NCBI GenBank assembly: GCA_945877365.1
Contig: CAMCRV010000008.1
Coordinates: 1 to 64,000, forward strand
Source of the DNA: an uncultured Clostridia bacterium
Lineage (GTDB): Bacteria; Bacillota; Clostridia; Oscillospirales; Oscillospiraceae
Length of the DNA: 64,000 nucleotides
Direction: 5' to 3'
The position numbers and the translations under genes were made by a program. The notes below the pieces were generated by a model. That model was not told the DNA's origin. It made no database searches and saw only the letters and a program-made list of their open reading frames with translations. Positions 1 through 58,760 of the stretch are shown one piece after another. The stretch's first letter is position 1. Each line of letters starts with the position of its first letter.

Positions 1-52
1 CACCTCCCCTTACACAGGGGAGGCTTTGGGCATCCCCACAAATAACAATTTG
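1..52. repeat. Palindromic repeat family 1, right part (cut by window start)
   Basis: Ends with CCCCTTACACAGGGG followed by AGGCTTTGGGCATCCCCAC, the same right flank as the copies near 16.76 kb and 58.76 kb. Only the last arm is inside the window. Confidence 0.8.
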
Positions 53-349: not shown

Positions 350-800
350 AAAGCCTCCCTTGTGTAAAGGGAGGTGGCACGGCGTAAGCCGTGACGGAGG
401 GATTGTCATGCAGCCAAAGTACAATAAGCAGTTGGTTCCCTTGGCAAAACAGCTGCGAAAAGAAATGACCAAGGAAGAACGGCACCTATGGTATGATTTT
501 CTGCGTTCCTACCCTGTCCGTTTTTCCAGGCAAAAAGTGCTGGGAAAATATATCGCTGATTTCTATAGCGCAGAAGCAAAACTTGTCATTGAGTTGGACG
601 GTTCTCAACACTTTGAGGATAGAAATGTCAAAAAAGATGCAGACCGCACCGCTTTTCTGGAGGGGTATGGTCTGAGAGTCATTCGTATCCCCAACAACGA
701 AGTCGGCAGAAATTTCCGTGGAGTTTGCGAGTATATCGATGCTGCGGTAAAGCAATCCCTCAGTCAGCTTCGCTGACAGCTCCCTTTACACAAGGGAGCC
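350..800 (+). mobile_element. Palindromic repeat carrying a DUF559 nuclease gene
   Basis: The left arm (350-407) holds hairpin CCTCCCTTGTGTAAAGGGAGG, then CACGGCGTAAGCCGTG, then GGAGGGATTGTC directly before the ATG of the DUF559 gene. The right arm (753-800) starts CAATCCCTCAGTCAGC and ends in CTCCCTTTACACAAGGGAG. The short family-1 repeats elsewhere in the window join the same two arms directly (GGAGGGGTTGTC next to AATCCCCCAGTCAGC). They therefore look like copies of this element without the gene. The GGAGGG in the left arm doubles as the ribosome site, and the right arm encodes the protein's last residues (SLSQLR). Mobility is inferred; no target duplication was identified. Confidence 0.65.
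408..776 (+). CDS. DUF559 (Vsr-like) endonuclease-domain protein
   Basis: A 122-residue protein of the DUF559 family, a compact PD-(D/E)XK/Vsr-like nuclease fold. Visible features are KEMTKEERHLWYDFLR, then RFSRQKVLGKYIADFY with the conserved Asp, then LVIELDGSQH with the putative metal-binding Glu and Asp, and FLEGYGLRVIRIPN. The start was placed at the ATG 16 codons inside the longest frame. GGAGGG from the flanking repeat is correctly spaced there, and the upstream codons are repeat sequence. The gene is wholly enclosed by the two arms of a palindromic repeat, and its C-terminus is encoded in the right arm. DUF559 biochemistry is poorly known; a role in spreading the repeat is inference. 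Confidence 0.85.
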   Translation: MQPKYNKQLVPLAKQLRKEMTKEERHLWYDFLRSYPVRFSRQKVLGKYIADFYSAEAKLVIELDGSQHFEDRNVKKDADRTAFLEGYGLRVIRIPNNEVGRNFRGVCEYIDAAVKQSLSQLR

Positions 801-4095: not shown

Positions 4096-4280
4096 GTATC
4101 CGGGTGGATTCTGCCTACTCCACAAATAATAGGCAGCGGTCCGCTGAAATAAAGGAGGATAAACCCGTCTGACTCACGGTATGGCAGTGTGGAGACCTGT
4201 CATAAAGCCCCCGGAATGTTACTTTCCGGACGGTGAGAACGCACGCGAAAATGGTAGGTGCGTTTAGAGTCGAAAACAGT
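4096..4280 (+). ncRNA. Structured 5' leader, unassigned (possible regulatory RNA)
   Basis: Several complementary pairs are visible. ATCCGGG near 4098 can pair with CCCGGAA near 4211. CTGCCTA/TAGGCAG forms a hairpin near 4110-4137, and AGCGG/CCGCT follows it. CTCCAC (4119) matches GTGGAG (4190). CCGGAA/TTCCGG forms a strong hairpin at about 4211-4228 that competes with the first pairing. Mutually exclusive stems before a gene are typical of a riboswitch or attenuator, but I cannot assign a known family. A separate small RNA is also possible. Class and ligand are unknown. Confidence 0.4.
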
Positions 4281-5465
4281 ATGGCAAGCTTAACCCTGAA
4301 GAACATCAAAAAGGTCTACCCCTTCAACGGCGACGATGCCAAGAAAAAGAAGAAGGGCGAGCCCGCCAAGAAGACCAACCTGCAGGTTACCGATGAGGGC
4401 GTTGTGGCTGTTCAGGAGTTCAACCTGGACATCGCCGACAAGGAATTCATCGTTCTGGTCGGTCCTTCCGGCTGCGGTAAGTCCACCACCCTGCGTATGA
4501 TCGCCGGCCTGGAAGAGATTTCCGGCGGCGAGCTGTACATCGGCGACCGTCTGGTCAATGATGTCGCCCCCAAGGATCGGGACATCGCCATGGTTTTCCA
4601 GAACTATGCCCTGTATCCCCACATGACTGTTTATGAAAACATCGCTTTCGCACTGAAGCTGCGCAAGACCCCCAAGGACGAGATCGACCGCAAGGTCAAG
4701 GAAGCTGCCGAGATTCTGGATATCACCCAGTATCTGGGCCGTAAGCCCAAGGCTCTGTCCGGCGGTCAGCGTCAGCGTGTGGCCATCGGCCGTGCCATCG
4801 TCCGTGAGCCCAAGGTTCTGCTGATGGACGAGCCTCTGTCCAACCTGGACGCCAAGCTGCGTAACCAGATGCGTGCAGAGATCATCAAGCTGCGTGAGCG
4901 TATCAATACCACCTTTATCTATGTTACCCACGACCAGACCGAGGCTATGACTCTGGGCGACCGGATCGTCATCATGAAGGACGGCTTCATCCAGCAGATC
5001 GGCACACCTCAGGAGGTCTTCAACCATCCCTACAACCTGTTTGTGGCTACCTTCATCGGCACGCCTCAGATGAATATGTTCGACAACGCCAAGCTGGTCA
5101 AGGAGAACGGCAAGTACGCCGTCAAGCTGGACTGCCTGACTGTTGAGCTGTCCGAGGACAAGCAGGCTGCTCTGGCCAAGAACAATGTTGCCGAGCAGGA
5201 TGTGGTTCTGGGCGTCCGTCCCGAGCACATCACCCTGGAGCAGAGCGGCATCGACGGCAAGGTGGATGTGTCCGAAATGATGGGCTCCTCCGTCCACCTG
5301 CATGTCACCTCCATGGGCCGCGATGTGGTCATGGTTGTTTCCACCATGAATATGTCCGCTGCCGAGGTTGGCGCACTGTCCAATGGCTCCGCTGTGAAGT
5401 ACAACTTCCCCGGCCATGTCTGCCACCTGTTCTCCAAGGAGACCGGCATCAATCTGGAGGCCTGA
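4281..5465 (+). CDS. Sugar ABC transporter ATPase, MsmX/UgpC type
   Basis: A 394-residue CUT1-family ATPase that energises carbohydrate importers at the membrane. Motifs in order are Walker A GPSGCGKST, Q-loop VFQNYALYPHMTVYEN, signature LSGGQRQRVAIGRA, Walker B VLLMDEPLSNLDAKLR, H-loop YVTHDQTEA, then a C-terminal TOBE/OB domain. A Lys-rich insertion of about 30 residues (14-45, AKKKKKGEPAKK) splits the N-terminal strands; it is uncommon and unexplained. The start was chosen by homology (MASLTLKNIKKVY), since no strong ribosome site is present. It has no permease neighbours, so like MsmX it probably serves several importers, including the permease pair at 17-18.7 kb, which lacks its own ATPase. 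It follows a structured leader and ends at a terminator. Confidence 0.92.
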   Translation: MASLTLKNIKKVYPFNGDDAKKKKKGEPAKKTNLQVTDEGVVAVQEFNLDIADKEFIVLVGPSGCGKSTTLRMIAGLEEISGGELYIGDRLVNDVAPKDRDIAMVFQNYALYPHMTVYENIAFALKLRKTPKDEIDRKVKEAAEILDITQYLGRKPKALSGGQRQRVAIGRAIVREPKVLLMDEPLSNLDAKLRNQMRAEIIKLRERINTTFIYVTHDQTEAMTLGDRIVIMKDGFIQQIGTPQEVFNHPYNLFVATFIGTPQMNMFDNAKLVKENGKYAVKLDCLTVELSEDKQAALAKNNVAEQDVVLGVRPEHITLEQSGIDGKVDVSEMMGSSVHLHVTSMGRDVVMVVSTMNMSAAEVGALSNGSAVKYNFPGHVCHLFSKETGINLEA

Positions 5466-5577: not shown

Positions 5578-5661
5578 GCCTCTCCCTCTGGGAGAGGTGC
5601 CCGGAGGGCGGAGAGGGCACCCTCTCAGTCAGCTTCGCTGCCAGCTCCCCCAGGGGGGAGC
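5578..5661. repeat. Palindromic repeat family 1, divergent copy
   Basis: Same plan as family 1 but with changed arms. CCTCTCCCTCTGGGAGAGG and GGCGGAGAGGGC meet CCCTCTCAGTCAGCTTCGCTG and a final CTCCCCCAGGGGGGAG. It is the gene-free form. Confidence 0.7.
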
Positions 5662-5756
5662 CAAGACATTTCCGAAAGCTGAATCACGGCAGCAAGGATT
5701 TCCTTTATACAATTCGCAGAAAATTGGGAAAATCTCCATATAACCTCGGGTTTACC

Positions 5757-12900: not shown

Positions 12901-12910
12901 CGGGTTCTCA

Positions 12911-13031
12911 GGCCCCCTTGTGTAAAGGGGGCTGTCACCGCATTGCGGTGACTGGGGGATTGACACTGCCGAGGTCAACCCCTCCGCCCCAGTGTGCGCA
13001 CTGGGGCACCTCCCCTTACACAGGGGAGGCT
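12911..13031. repeat. Palindromic repeat family 1, gene-free copy
   Basis: Outer arms CCCCCTTGTGTAAAGGGGG and CCTCCCCTTACACAGGGGAGG. The inner hairpins are GTCACCGCATTGCGGTGAC and GCCCCAGTGTGCGCACTGGGGC. It is placed between the transketolase stop and the terminator. Confidence 0.9.
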
Positions 13032-13090
13032 TAGCTGCTGTTGTGTCAGTGCCTTTCATCCGGGTTTCCATCAACACAGTTCCCTGCAAT

Positions 13091-16483: not shown

Positions 16484-16578
16484 TAGTTTGTAACCATATT
16501 TTTGCCGAAATTTCAGAAATCATCAAAACACGAGAAATTGGCTTTGGGGTAGACAAATTGTTATTTGGCGAGGTCAAA

Positions 16579-16768
16579 GGCCCCCTTGTGTAAAGGGGGC
16601 TGTCAGCGAAGCTGACTGGGGGATTGACAACCCCTCCGGCAAAAATCAATAGATTTTTGCCACCTGATACATTTTGGTATGATTGCCACTGGCAATCATG
16701 GAGATTTTGATTCGCTGCGCGGAGCACAACCCCTTACACAGGGGAGGCTTTGGGCATCCCCACAAATA
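16579..16768. repeat. Palindromic repeat family 1, copy with about 70-bp insertion
   Basis: Starts GGCCCCCTTGTGTAAAGGGGG, then GTCAGCGAAGCTGAC and GGCAAAAATCAATAGATTTTTG. About 70 bp of foreign sequence then interrupts the final arm, before CCCCTTACACAGGGGAGG and GGGCATCCCCAC. Together with the operators and the terminator it accounts for the 16.41-16.95 kb gap; no gene is seen there. Confidence 0.85.
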
Positions 16769-22283: not shown

Positions 22284-22389
22284 CAGGCGGACAGAATGCA
22301 GGAAAACGAGACTTTTCAGATTCTGCCTGCCGTGATATAATAATTCGTACATATCAGCTCAAGGCAGCAAAGCGACAAATTGGAATTTG

Positions 22390-22511
22390 TGGGGCTGCCC
22401 AAAGCCTCCCCTGTGTAAGGGGAGGTGGCAAAAATCTATTGATTTTTGCCGGAGGGGTTGTCAATCCCCCAGTCAGCTTTGCTGACAGCCCCCTTTACAC
22501 AAGGGGGCCTT
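22390..22511. repeat. Palindromic repeat family 1, gene-free copy (opposite orientation)
   Basis: GCCTCCCCTGTGTAAGGGGAGG, then GGCAAAAATCTATTGATTTTTG, GGAGGGGTTGTC joined to AATCCCCCAGTCAGC, and final CCCCCTTTACACAAGGGGG. Flanks include CAAATTGGAATTTGTGGGG and AAATTCCAATT, which also border other copies. The rest of 22.28-22.60 kb holds no gene. Confidence 0.9.
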
Positions 22512-36716: not shown

Positions 36717-36794
36717 TGTGGGATGGATACGGATTCTCTTTTAAAGTGTTTTGTGCTTATCGGTTTTACTCAGCCGGTTGATAAATTGTTATTT

Positions 36795-36945
36795 AATTGA
36801 CAATTGAAAATTGATAATTGATAATTGTTGGTATCCCTTCGGGATGAATTTAAAAAGAAAAACCGAGAGAAACCGCAAAAAATGATTTCAAAATCGTCCC
36901 GAAGGGACACAATCATTTTCAATTATCCATTATAAATTATCAATT
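36795..36945. repeat. Repeat family 2, copy 2
   Basis: About 150 bp with AATTGACAATTGAAAATTG at one end and inverted ATTATCAATTC at the other; the facing inner blocks are ATCCCTTCGGGA and GTCCCGAAGGGAC. It is more diverged than the copies at 1.0 and 43.2 kb. It is followed by AAATTCCAGTTTGTCG, a flank also seen next to family-1 copies. Confidence 0.8.
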
Positions 36946-37079
36946 CGACGAAGTCGATAAATTCCAGTTTGTCGCTTTGCTGACTTAAGCCGATATGCAC
37001 AGAATGTTTCATCAATCCGGATGGAACATTTTTATCGAGAATTCGTATGAGAAATCGTATCAGGCGGGAGGAAACGGAT

Positions 37080-42617: not shown

Positions 42618-42677
42618 CTTTTGAAATATGAAAAAAGCATATCGGCCTGAGTCAGCAAACCGGCAAATTGTCATTTG

Positions 42678-42800
42678 TGGGGATGCCCAAAGCCTCCCCT
42701 GTGTAAGGGGAGGTGGCAAAAATCTATTGATTTTTGCCGGAGGGGTTGTCAATCCCCCAGTCAGCTTCGCTGACAGCCCCCTTTACACAAGGGGGCCTTT
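42678..42800. repeat. Palindromic repeat family 1, gene-free copy
   Basis: Nearly identical to the copy at 22.4 kb over the whole length. The central join GGAGGGGTTGTC/AATCCCCCAGTCAGC and both outer arms are present. Flanks CAAATTGTCATTTGTGGGG and AAATTCCAATTTGTCG are also shared. Confidence 0.92.
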
Positions 42801-43149: not shown

Positions 43150-43213
43150 CCAGCTCCCCTCCGTTTGATCCCTGCATCTATTGTATGCGGCGAAGGGGAG
43201 GGATGTGCATATT

Positions 43214-43361
43214 GAATTGACAATTGACAATGGAAAATTGACAATTAAGGAATCCCTTTGGGATGATTTTAGAATAAAGGGCTAAAAGCCGTACAAATCT
43301 TTTCTAATTTGTCCCGAAGGGACACCACAATTGTCAACTGTCAATTGTCAATTGTCAATTC
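43214..43361. repeat. Repeat family 2, copy 3
   Basis: 148 bp between the sigG 3' end and the ylmC-like gene. Ends GAATTGACAATTGACAATG and inverted CAATTGTCAATTGTCAATTC; inner ATCCCTTTGGGAT and GTCCCGAAGGGAC. Confidence 0.88.
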
Positions 43362-43370
43362 AAGACTGCT

Positions 43371-46959: not shown

Positions 46960-47011
46960 TGAAAAGGCATCATCTCAGGATGGTGCCTTTTTTGTTTCGG
47001 TGGTTAACTTC

Positions 47012-47230
47012 AACCCCAGAATTGGATAACTGAAGTGCCCAATAATAGGGTAGCAAACCCCAGAATCGGTTAAAAACAACCCCAGAATCGGTTAAATCCA
47101 ACCCCAGAATCGGTTAAATCCAACCCCAGAATCGGTTAAATCCAACCCCAGAATCGGTTAATAGAACCCCAGAATCGGTTAAATACAACCCCAGAAATGG
47201 TTAAAACCAACCCCAGAATCGGTTAAATAG
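47012..47230. repeat. Iteron array, 22-bp period
   Basis: About nine direct repeats with core CCCCAGAATCGGTTAAAT. Seven follow one another at 22-bp steps (47078 onward), and two less regular ones precede them. A further copy lies near 47938-47958 after an AT-rich stretch. Two-turn spacing on one DNA face, next to a Rep-like fragment, is the usual look of a theta-plasmid origin. Confidence 0.85.
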
Positions 47231-47309
47231 ACGGGTGCCTGAAAAGTTGATTTTTCCTTAGAGCCGCAACGGTTTTCGGGCTTCAGTTTTGGAGGCCGTA
47301 AGATATAAT

Positions 47310-51491: not shown

Positions 51492-51552
51492 ACAAGAAGA
51501 CCTGGGCCGCAGCCCAGGTCTTAAAACTGTTCGACAAATTGGAATTGGTCGA

Positions 51553-51837
51553 TTACTTGCTGTCTGCCGAACTTGTCTTTGACTTCAATTTAAGTACCAA
51601 GCCAGTCAGCAAGGAAGATACAAATGCAATCGTTGCTTGTGTTGCCAATATTCCATACAGTTCACTACCATGTGAAGGCACAACATTGACAACAACCCAA
51701 CCCACAAGGGCTAAAACTGCAAATACAACTGTTACAAAAAAGGCTTTATTAAATCGTTGCAACAGAATACGAATTGCTAAACCAACGATTATCGGAAGAC
51801 CAAAAATAAACAAATAGTTAATAATAATCTGTTTCAT
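51553..51837 (-). CDS. Small membrane protein (94 aa), cassette gene 3
   Basis: Three predicted spans (YLFIFGLPIIVGLAIRILL, FFVTVVFAVLALVGWVVVNV, ATQATIAFVSSLLTGLVLKL). The start was chosen at the ATG of MKQIIINYL because the bases before it are a leader shared with the next two genes (AATTTGACAAAGGGATGTGA then TTGTATG). Function unknown. Confidence 0.7.
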   Translation of the reverse strand: MKQIIINYLFIFGLPIIVGLAIRILLQRFNKAFFVTVVFAVLALVGWVVVNVVPSHGSELYGILATQATIAFVSSLLTGLVLKLKSKTSSADSK

Positions 51838-51869
51838 ACAATCACATCCCTTTGTCAAATTGGAATTGG

Positions 51870-52037
51870 TCAAAGCGACATTATCAGCATAACGGCGGTG
51901 GCAACAATCGCAACTGCCTCCATAATGCTGACCAAGGTAAATGCCTTCTTTGAAAATCTGTTCTGCTTATACTCTCCATAGGTAAAATACAGAGTGAGAG
52001 CAGAGAAAATTATAACTACTAAATACAACCAAGTCAT
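51870..52037 (-). CDS. Small membrane protein (55 aa), cassette gene 2
   Basis: MTWLYLVVIIFSALTLYFTY, then a short loop and a second span (IMEAVAIVATAVMLIMSL). The start follows AATTTGATAAAGGAGTGTGA TTGT ATG, nearly the same leader as the genes on both sides. Function unknown; two-span peptides of this size can act as toxins or signal peptides, but nothing here shows that. Confidence 0.65.
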   Translation of the reverse strand: MTWLYLVVIIFSALTLYFTYGEYKQNRFSKKAFTLVSIMEAVAIVATAVMLIMSL

Positions 52038-52070
52038 ACAATCACACTCCTTTATCAAATTGGAACTTAC

Positions 52071-52418
52071 TTAATTATCAGTCTGCATCCAATCTACTAA
52101 TACTGCATCCTCTATGTCAAAGTAATCGTTCATATTACTGCTAAATCCCGCCGCTTTCCATGCTCTTTCAAAGGGGATGTTTTCGATATTGCTCAAATAT
52201 GTAAATGTCGAATTTGTCTTAGCATTAGGCATAGTGCCTTTGATTACCAATCTATACTTGTATATTTGCCCATCGTATTCCCATGTGCCATCACTCAGTT
52301 CATAGTAGGTTTTCAAATTGCCTTCAATGGTTTTAGTGCGTTCGGGCGGCTGGTTGCCACATCCAACTAAGCCAAGTACACAAACTACCGCTAAAACTAA
52401 TGCTATCAGTTTTTTCAT
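52071..52418 (-). CDS. Small lipoprotein (115 aa), cassette gene 1
   Basis: Signal peptide MKKLIALVLAVVCVLGLVGC with a lipobox (LVGC); the mature part is about 96 residues (GNLKTYYELSDGTWEYDGQI, then YKYRLVIKGTMPNAKTN). The leader is AATTTGACAAAGGAGTGTGA TTCT ATG. Membrane-anchored small lipoproteins on mobile elements often act in immunity or exclusion; that is only a suggestion here. Confidence 0.75.
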   Translation of the reverse strand: MKKLIALVLAVVCVLGLVGCGNQPPERTKTIEGNLKTYYELSDGTWEYDGQIYKYRLVIKGTMPNAKTNSTFTYLSNIENIPFERAWKAAGFSSNMNDYFDIEDAVLVDWMQTDN

Positions 52419-52517
52419 AGAATCACACTCCTTTGTCAAATTCAAGTTTTGCGAATTGTTTGTATTTTTATTATAGCGGATTTGGCCTATTGCGTATAGA
52501 CCAAAATTGTAAAATTT

Positions 52518-58613: not shown

Positions 58614-58635
58614 ATTGAAATTTGGCGCACCCAAA

Positions 58636-58760
58636 GGCCCCCTTGTGTAAAGGGGGCTGTCAGCGAAGCTGACTGGGGGATTGACAACCCCTCCGGCAAA
58701 AATCAATAGATTTTTGCCACCTCCCCTTACACAGGGGAGGCTTTGGGCATCCCCACAAAT
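58636..58760. repeat. Palindromic repeat family 1, gene-free copy
   Basis: GGCCCCCTTGTGTAAAGGGGG, GTCAGCGAAGCTGAC, GGCAAAAATCAATAGATTTTTG, CCTCCCCTTACACAGGGGAGG, right flank GGCTTTGGGCATCCCCAC. It is the reverse orientation of the copies at 22.4 and 42.7 kb. Confidence 0.92.

Follow-up and report, generated by a model that had tools for sequence, protein, structure and literature searches.

The analysed stretch, hereafter called the window, comprises positions 1–64,000 of contig CAMCRV010000008.1, which belongs to a 2.15-Mb genome in 61 contigs (GCA_945877365.1). On its plus strand, positions 408–776 hold a gene of 122 amino acids for a Vsr-like PD-(D/E)XK nuclease of the DUF559 family (PF04480; profile match E=4e-29), the only DUF559 gene of the genome; proteins of this family are commonly annotated as unknown or Vsr-like. 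The gene is enclosed by two inverted arms, arm B upstream (353–406, +; stem 1 GCCTCCCTTGTGTAAAGGGAGG, a variable stem 2 (TGGCACGGCGTAAGCCGTGA) and then CGGAGGGATTGT) and arm A downstream (752–800, +; GCAATCCCTCAG, stem 2 (TCAGCTTCGCTGA) and CAGCTCCCTTTACACAAGGGAGCC), bearing out the original prediction that the gene is built into a palindromic repeat. The same prediction had the repeat supplying the ribosome site and the last codons of the gene, and this is what the arms contain: the Shine-Dalgarno sequence GGAGGG (396–401, +), 6 nt ahead of the ATG at 408, is part of arm B, while arm A codes for the C-terminal residues SLSQLR and carries the stop codon TGA (774–776) inside its second hairpin. 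Folding of the two arms as single-stranded DNA gave z values of −6.1 and −6.4, and no shuffled sequence was that low. PF04480 was the only domain between the arms, and the enzyme matched no transposase class. The open reading frames close to the gene resemble, as judged by eye, an RNA methyltransferase and MurA; no DNA-cytosine methyltransferase was seen among them. A structured RNA family was also considered for the arms and gave no Rfam match there.

The predicted structure of the encoded protein (pLDDT 88.9, pTM 0.82) matched, by VIA-align, the folds of NGO0050 (3hrl; Z 14.6), of I-Bth0305I, a homing endonuclease (3r3p; 96 residues aligned at Z 12.6; hmmsearch E=0.0015), and of E. coli Vsr (Z 10.4–10.9); this confident model and its matches agree with the single Vsr-like nuclease domain that had been proposed for the parent enzyme. 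Residues E24, D51, E62, D64 and H68 were invariant in 31 homologues, and the protein, which has the Vsr/PD-(D/E)XK fold of PF04480 only, contains neither an HUH motif nor the catalytic tyrosine motif of a tyrosine transposase. Vsr is a DNA-nicking enzyme, and VsrA, another DUF559 protein, provokes a DNA damage response in Caulobacter without the solitary cytosine methylase ScmA (PMC12907096). Given the modelled Vsr-type fold, the invariant residues and the activities of Vsr and VsrA, the window protein is likely to be an active nuclease. A search for defence systems with PADLOC returned weak domain matches only, including a weak ‘homing endonuclease’ match.

Scanning of GTDB species genomes for relatives yielded 80 loci with flanks from other Clostridia, each at least 72% identical in its best segment, which together with the window make a set of 81; the comparison overall spans about 110 relatives. 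Arm B was found in 73 and arm A in 75 of the 81 loci, at least one arm in 78 and both in 70, a proportion that describes the clade of the window gene since the 80 loci were selected by likeness to it. Most DUF559 genes of this set thus carry the arms, as had been anticipated; some of the more distant DUF559 genes lacked recognisable arms. In pairs with less than 90% amino-acid identity, the arm core (70 nt) was 97.4% identical, as against 36–50% at four-fold degenerate sites, which are near saturation. The sequence of stem 2 was free to vary with its pairing kept (36 variants in arm B and 14 in arm A), and native stems folded more stably than chimeras (−7.7 versus −4.4 kcal/mol for B; −6.4 versus −3.0 kcal/mol for A). 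The gene is under purifying selection, with a median dN/dS of 0.052, and seventy-seven of the 81 gene copies contained no stop codon. Distant DUF559 genes of the same GTDB family were flanked by other arms of identical layout, either CTCTCCC..GGGAGAG..CTGAGAGGG or CTTCCCC..GGGGAAG..GGATGAGG, and on a tree of 59 proteins the three arm types required 2 changes, the minimum (shuffled mean 12.2). Arm type tracks nuclease clade, and the best-supported reading is that arms and enzyme form a matched pair. Opposed arm cores were spaced either 99–180 bases (gene-free) or 422–487 bases (gene-bearing) apart, with few others, and no gene other than DUF559 was seen between opposed arms at the gene spacing.

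The window also contains gene-free copies, at 12910–13032 (+; L096, with A and B arms and a short spacer), 16578–16750 (+; L097, with an extra hairpin insertion in the B arm), 22385–22509 (−; L098), 42672–42798 (−; L099) and 58634–58746 (+; L100), in addition to a partial one at 1–23 (+), the end of a B arm cut by the contig end. A related gene-free dimer at 5578–5662 (+) belongs to another arm family (CTCTCCC..GGGAGAG, type II), for which the genome held no cognate DUF559 gene; when this family is included, the earlier count of seven other copies or parts in 64 kb is correct. In the gene-free copies, arm A is joined head to head with arm B at ATTGACAA, and their A/B asymmetry equals that around the DUF559 gene. 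The prediction that these repeats join exactly the arms of the gene therefore stood as regards layout; the copies themselves form a separate subfamily with the B core CCCCTGTGTAAGGGG (n=27, median 96% alike) and its own outer ends (AAATTGGAATTT...AAATTCCAATTT), and subfamilies differ by fixed substitutions. They are a related subfamily and not simple deletion products of the gene's own arms.

Genome-wide copies were counted by pattern matching to the arm core; CCYTTGTGTAARGGG gave 75 matches (31+44) and the reversed control pattern none, so the abundance of the repeat is no accident. Gene-free copies folded as DNA with z values of −7.1 and −7.5, lower than any shuffle, and were intergenic wherever inspected. 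An identical extra hairpin (GATACATTTTGGTATGATTGCCACTGGCAATCATGG..) lies within arm B of the copy at 16578–16750 and of L084, L092, L107, L108 and L111; it is a nested secondary insertion, itself amplified. Many gene-free copies (L086–L091, L093, L098, L099 and others) are centred in a longer palindrome, ATGTGCTTATCGG..CCGATAAGCACAT, a position also known from some REP dimers; it suggests that hairpin loops or the centres of cruciforms are targeted.

Across 120 genomes of the family, arm B and DUF559 occurred together in 13, arm B alone in 6, DUF559 alone in 21 and neither in 80 (odds ratio 8.3, P=8e-5); many of the 21 DUF559-only genomes hold other arm types. The core was present in 45 of the 47 genomes with a DUF559 relative, at 1 to 37 copies each, and its median copy number over 48 genomes was 7. 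Five genomes (G121, G123, G125, G126 and G160) have a single exact core per orientation, namely the gene's own two arms, indicating that the gene is able to exist without gene-free copies of the core. Carriage by known phages or plasmids was considered as well and rejected: none of the 50,697 phage records and 72,556 plasmid records gave a full-length match, and distant homologues occurred in just 2 viral contigs.

Orthologous sites were compared between pairs at most about 93% identical, at which element boundaries are approximate. One gene-bearing copy (L049) lies between recF and gyrB, where the gap in congeners is empty (about 40–110 bp) or holds unrelated palindromic elements. Another full element (L063), whose gene has a stop codon, follows argS; at this site congener G152 has only the solo hairpin GCCTCCCTTTACACAAGGGAGCC, and an imperfect repeat of the argS end (~22–24 bp) flanks both the L063 element and the G152 solo hairpin, other congeners being without it. 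A third full element (L050) in G152 corresponds to the solo hairpin GCCTCCCTTTGCACAAGGGAGCC at the same site in G161 and G228, and to its right G152 carries a second, degenerate copy of the last codons of the upstream gene. The solo hairpin has a length of 23 bp and is what would be left if each arm's 7-bp CTCCCTT repeat were joined by deletion of the interval; because direct repeats enclose the arms, we read it from these alignments as a collapsed remnant of the full element, although the change may have run the other way. No intact A/B repeat was present among the orthologous alleles examined, which were either empty or a solo hairpin, and the genome of the window itself yielded no solo hairpin. 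The empty-site comparison that the original prediction had called for thus revealed gene and arms gained or lost together, or jointly collapsed to the solo hairpin.

Flanking direct repeats scored 7.37 over 67 loci relative to 6.37±0.15 for permuted pairs (0 of 2,000 permutations). The highest values belonged to L045, with a repeat of 32 bp, and L063, with one of 22 bp; the 29-bp repeat of L050 likewise scored high under softer scoring but ranked no higher than controls under harsh scoring. All of these repeats are imperfect. The signal at L022, L024, L025 and L048 stems from the host motif AAACTTGAATTTG and is to be discounted, and most insertions showed no recognisable target duplication. 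For gene-free copies there was a weak excess of direct repeats (P=0.002), and inverted similarity of their flanks did not exceed permutation because many of them share the outer palindrome. The recF–gyrB gap is a hot spot in the genus of G151 (L144–L173), where species differ in the palindromic element that they hold: DUF559 elements of type I, DUF559 with CTTCCCC arms together with gene-free copies (L168), elements of the GIY-YIG kind, and two palindromes, TTGACAATTGACAATTG and GTAGGGGCG.

That gene and arms are mobile as one unit is well supported by these comparisons of sequence. Our preferred explanation, which we consider probable, is a mobile element of ~450 bp, composed of the DUF559 nuclease gene and two inverted two-hairpin arms and accompanied by non-autonomous gene-free derivatives; that the latter dimers are non-autonomous relatives of the gene-bearing element is the best-supported view of their origin. 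We infer that the nuclease drives the movement. It would recognise the arms, the probable targets in them being extruded hairpins or the GGGATTGT/ACAATCCC palindrome, and would nick or cut there and at a target, after which host replication or repair would copy the element in, at times leaving target duplications of 22–32 bp; completion of the insertion by host repair would account for long, irregular duplications. The gene-free A+B dimers might be mobilised in trans by the single intact nuclease, in the manner of REPINs by their RAYT or of MITEs by their parent, and old copies would acquire stop codons and then lose the interval between the CTCCCTT repeats, leaving the 23-bp solo hairpin. Counting against this explanation are the rarity of recognisable target duplications, the separate subfamily to which the window's gene-free copies belong, the six genomes that have arm B but no DUF559, and the larger unit shared by L003–L009.

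The strongest competitor of whole-element mobility is homing into pre-existing repeats, whereby the repeats spread by other means and a free-standing DUF559 homing gene cuts the repeat centre (GGGATTG^ACAATCCC or a hairpin loop), spreads to gene-free repeats when the break is repaired, its insertion destroying the cut site. The fold, which is closest to 3hrl and I-Bth0305I, and the weak PADLOC match point in this direction, as does the exactly central position of the gene in the A/B repeat, and gene-bearing and solo-hairpin alleles at one site can be read as homed and unhomed. However, gene and arms co-diversify, the direct repeats beside argS and those of the L050 site enclose the arms rather than the gene alone, most congeners have no such repeat at recF–gyrB and argS, as insertion of a whole element predicts, and the exact cores in the five genomes named above are the gene's own two arms only; homing is therefore disfavoured, and we regard it as rather unlikely.

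In some relatives the similarity extends beyond the arms. A larger unit of up to ~640 bp (265–905, +; first bases AAATTCCAATTTGTCG) is 93–96% identical across species and recurs between unrelated flanks in L003–L006, L008 and L009, all from other species, with a shorter version in L007 that corresponds to 323–904. The spread of these near-identical copies (L003–L009) involves the larger unit, and another system could be responsible; for these copies, bounded by AAATTCCAATTTGTCG, a passenger role of the nuclease is possible. Generalised to the whole family, this reading has an unrelated system, such as a transposase in trans or cassette-like AAATNNNAATTTG sites, moving arms and gene, with the nuclease as cargo that benefits or addicts the host. 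The shared larger unit speaks for it, as does the AAATT motif in which the gene-free copies of the window likewise end. Yet L049, L050, L052, L063 and others are bare arm-bounded elements outside any AAATTCCAATTTGTCG context, opposed arms at the gene-bearing spacing were seen to enclose no gene but DUF559, and cargo would not be expected to track arm type, which leaves the general form of this reading improbable. Least credible of all is the absence of mobility, with the arms as regulatory hairpins (terminators or mRNA stabilisers) and the scattered copies as ordinary REP-like terminators. Stable hairpins that contain the Shine-Dalgarno sequence and the stop codon, and the intergenic location of the inspected gene-free copies, would fit such a role, but the variable occupancy of orthologous sites, the recurrence of near-identical copies in unrelated places, the flanking direct repeats, the A+B joined form and the lack of matching Rfam families at the site all count against it, and we give it very little credence.

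REP-like palindromes rank with the most frequent repeats of bacteria, and their spread is only partly settled, for GTAG REPs with RAYTs. The mobile DUF559 element was compared with the REPtron, or REPIN–RAYT, system, in which the enzyme is a REP-associated tyrosine transposase (PMC3116915, PMC3733652, PMC8266576). Common to both are a gene that is enclosed by inverted palindromic repeats and, in the genome studied here, present once; many gene-free inverted dimers; dimers nested in other palindromes; and specificity between arm and enzyme. In contrast, the DUF559 enzyme is a Vsr-like PD-(D/E)XK nuclease with neither HUH nor catalytic tyrosine motif, its arms are two-stemmed, some copies have flanking direct repeats of 22–32 bp, and a GTAG tag at the hairpin foot is absent, the aligned arms of 70 loci starting with GCCTCCC and ending with GATTGT. 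With MITEs and their parents the element shares terminal inverted repeats in autonomous and non-autonomous copies, short amplified gene-free forms and internal-deletion remnants; it differs in that a transposase, whether of the DDE, serine or tyrosine type, is missing, that its ends are hairpin arms of ~50 nt, and that duplications are long and often absent. The REP/RAYT or MITE/parent parallel drawn in the original prediction agrees in anatomy, copy numbers and co-diversification, and since the enzyme is of another kind, the element is a variant of these systems and not a member.

As for nucleases of related fold, I-Bth0305I (Vsr-like EDxHD, 3r3p) resembles the DUF559 enzyme in its catalytic fold and in a gene placed mid-way in its presumed site, whereas the DUF559 gene has no intron or intein and no separate DNA-binding domain, and it resides in a palindrome dispersed through intergenic DNA rather than in a conserved gene. 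E. coli Vsr and the Caulobacter DUF559 protein VsrA (PMC12907096) share the fold and the DUF559 domain, whereas the window gene is tied to mobile palindromic arms and has no DNA-cytosine methyltransferase seen adjoining it. CGTC-tagged REPs (PMC3733652) are similar in their palindromic dimer style; their CGTC tag is absent from the arms of DUF559. No earlier description of a DUF559–palindrome element was found in the literature searched, which is weak evidence as subscription journals and preprints were sparsely covered there. Through pairing with its repeat, DUF559 gains a candidate function, and a compact nuclease–repeat unit that exists as solo hairpin, dimer and gene-bearing element, each nuclease with its cognate arms, opens the spread to in vitro tests that need no more than a protein of 122 residues and a hairpin of 60 bases.

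A second nuclease family showed a comparable arrangement. At the recF–gyrB hot spot and in other places of that genus, small GIY-YIG genes (PF01541) lie between inverted TGTCATTGCGAG...GTGGCAATCC arms (L159, L160, L163 and L170, all in the recF–gyrB gap, and L202–L209), and another set (L211–L214, L216) has TGTCATCCTGAG...GGATC arms on its two sides. Such arms are absent from the more distant GIY-YIG genes in the same genomes. We tentatively propose a class of ‘nuclease REPtrons’, which may or may not hold together, in which small stand-alone nucleases spread hairpin repeats: DUF559 enzymes would act on arms of the CTCCC type, and GIY-YIG enzymes, having taken up this role independently, on arms of the TCATTGCGAG or TCATCCTGAG type; if true, two unrelated nuclease folds share one life style. 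CGTC/TGTC-tagged REPs were described by Di Nocera et al. as having no dedicated transposase (PMC3733652), and the TGTC-tagged GIY-YIG arms resemble them in appearance. The GIY-YIG nuclease–palindrome system may be their missing enzyme, in which case this branch would provide the enzyme for widespread REP families reported without a transposase.

Several other repeats were observed in the window. Small open reading frames of unknown function, bounded by AAATNNNAATTTGnCG motifs, resemble a cassette-like array at 1–281 and 51532–52446; the motif occurs at 16 window sites relative to 0.7 expected and at 30 exact sites genome-wide, and gene-free repeats also sit inside it. A dispersed palindromic family, (TTGACAATTGACAATTG)..CCCTTCGGGA..TCAATTGTCAA, is present at 983–1131, 36791–36946 and 43211–43363 and contains no gene. 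About ten 22-bp units (AACCCCAGAATCGGTTAAATCC) are repeated in tandem at 47007–47250, and the only Rfam match, a malK-I RNA motif (RF03069, 104 bits), lies at 4100–4286, upstream of a gene for the ATPase of an ABC transporter.
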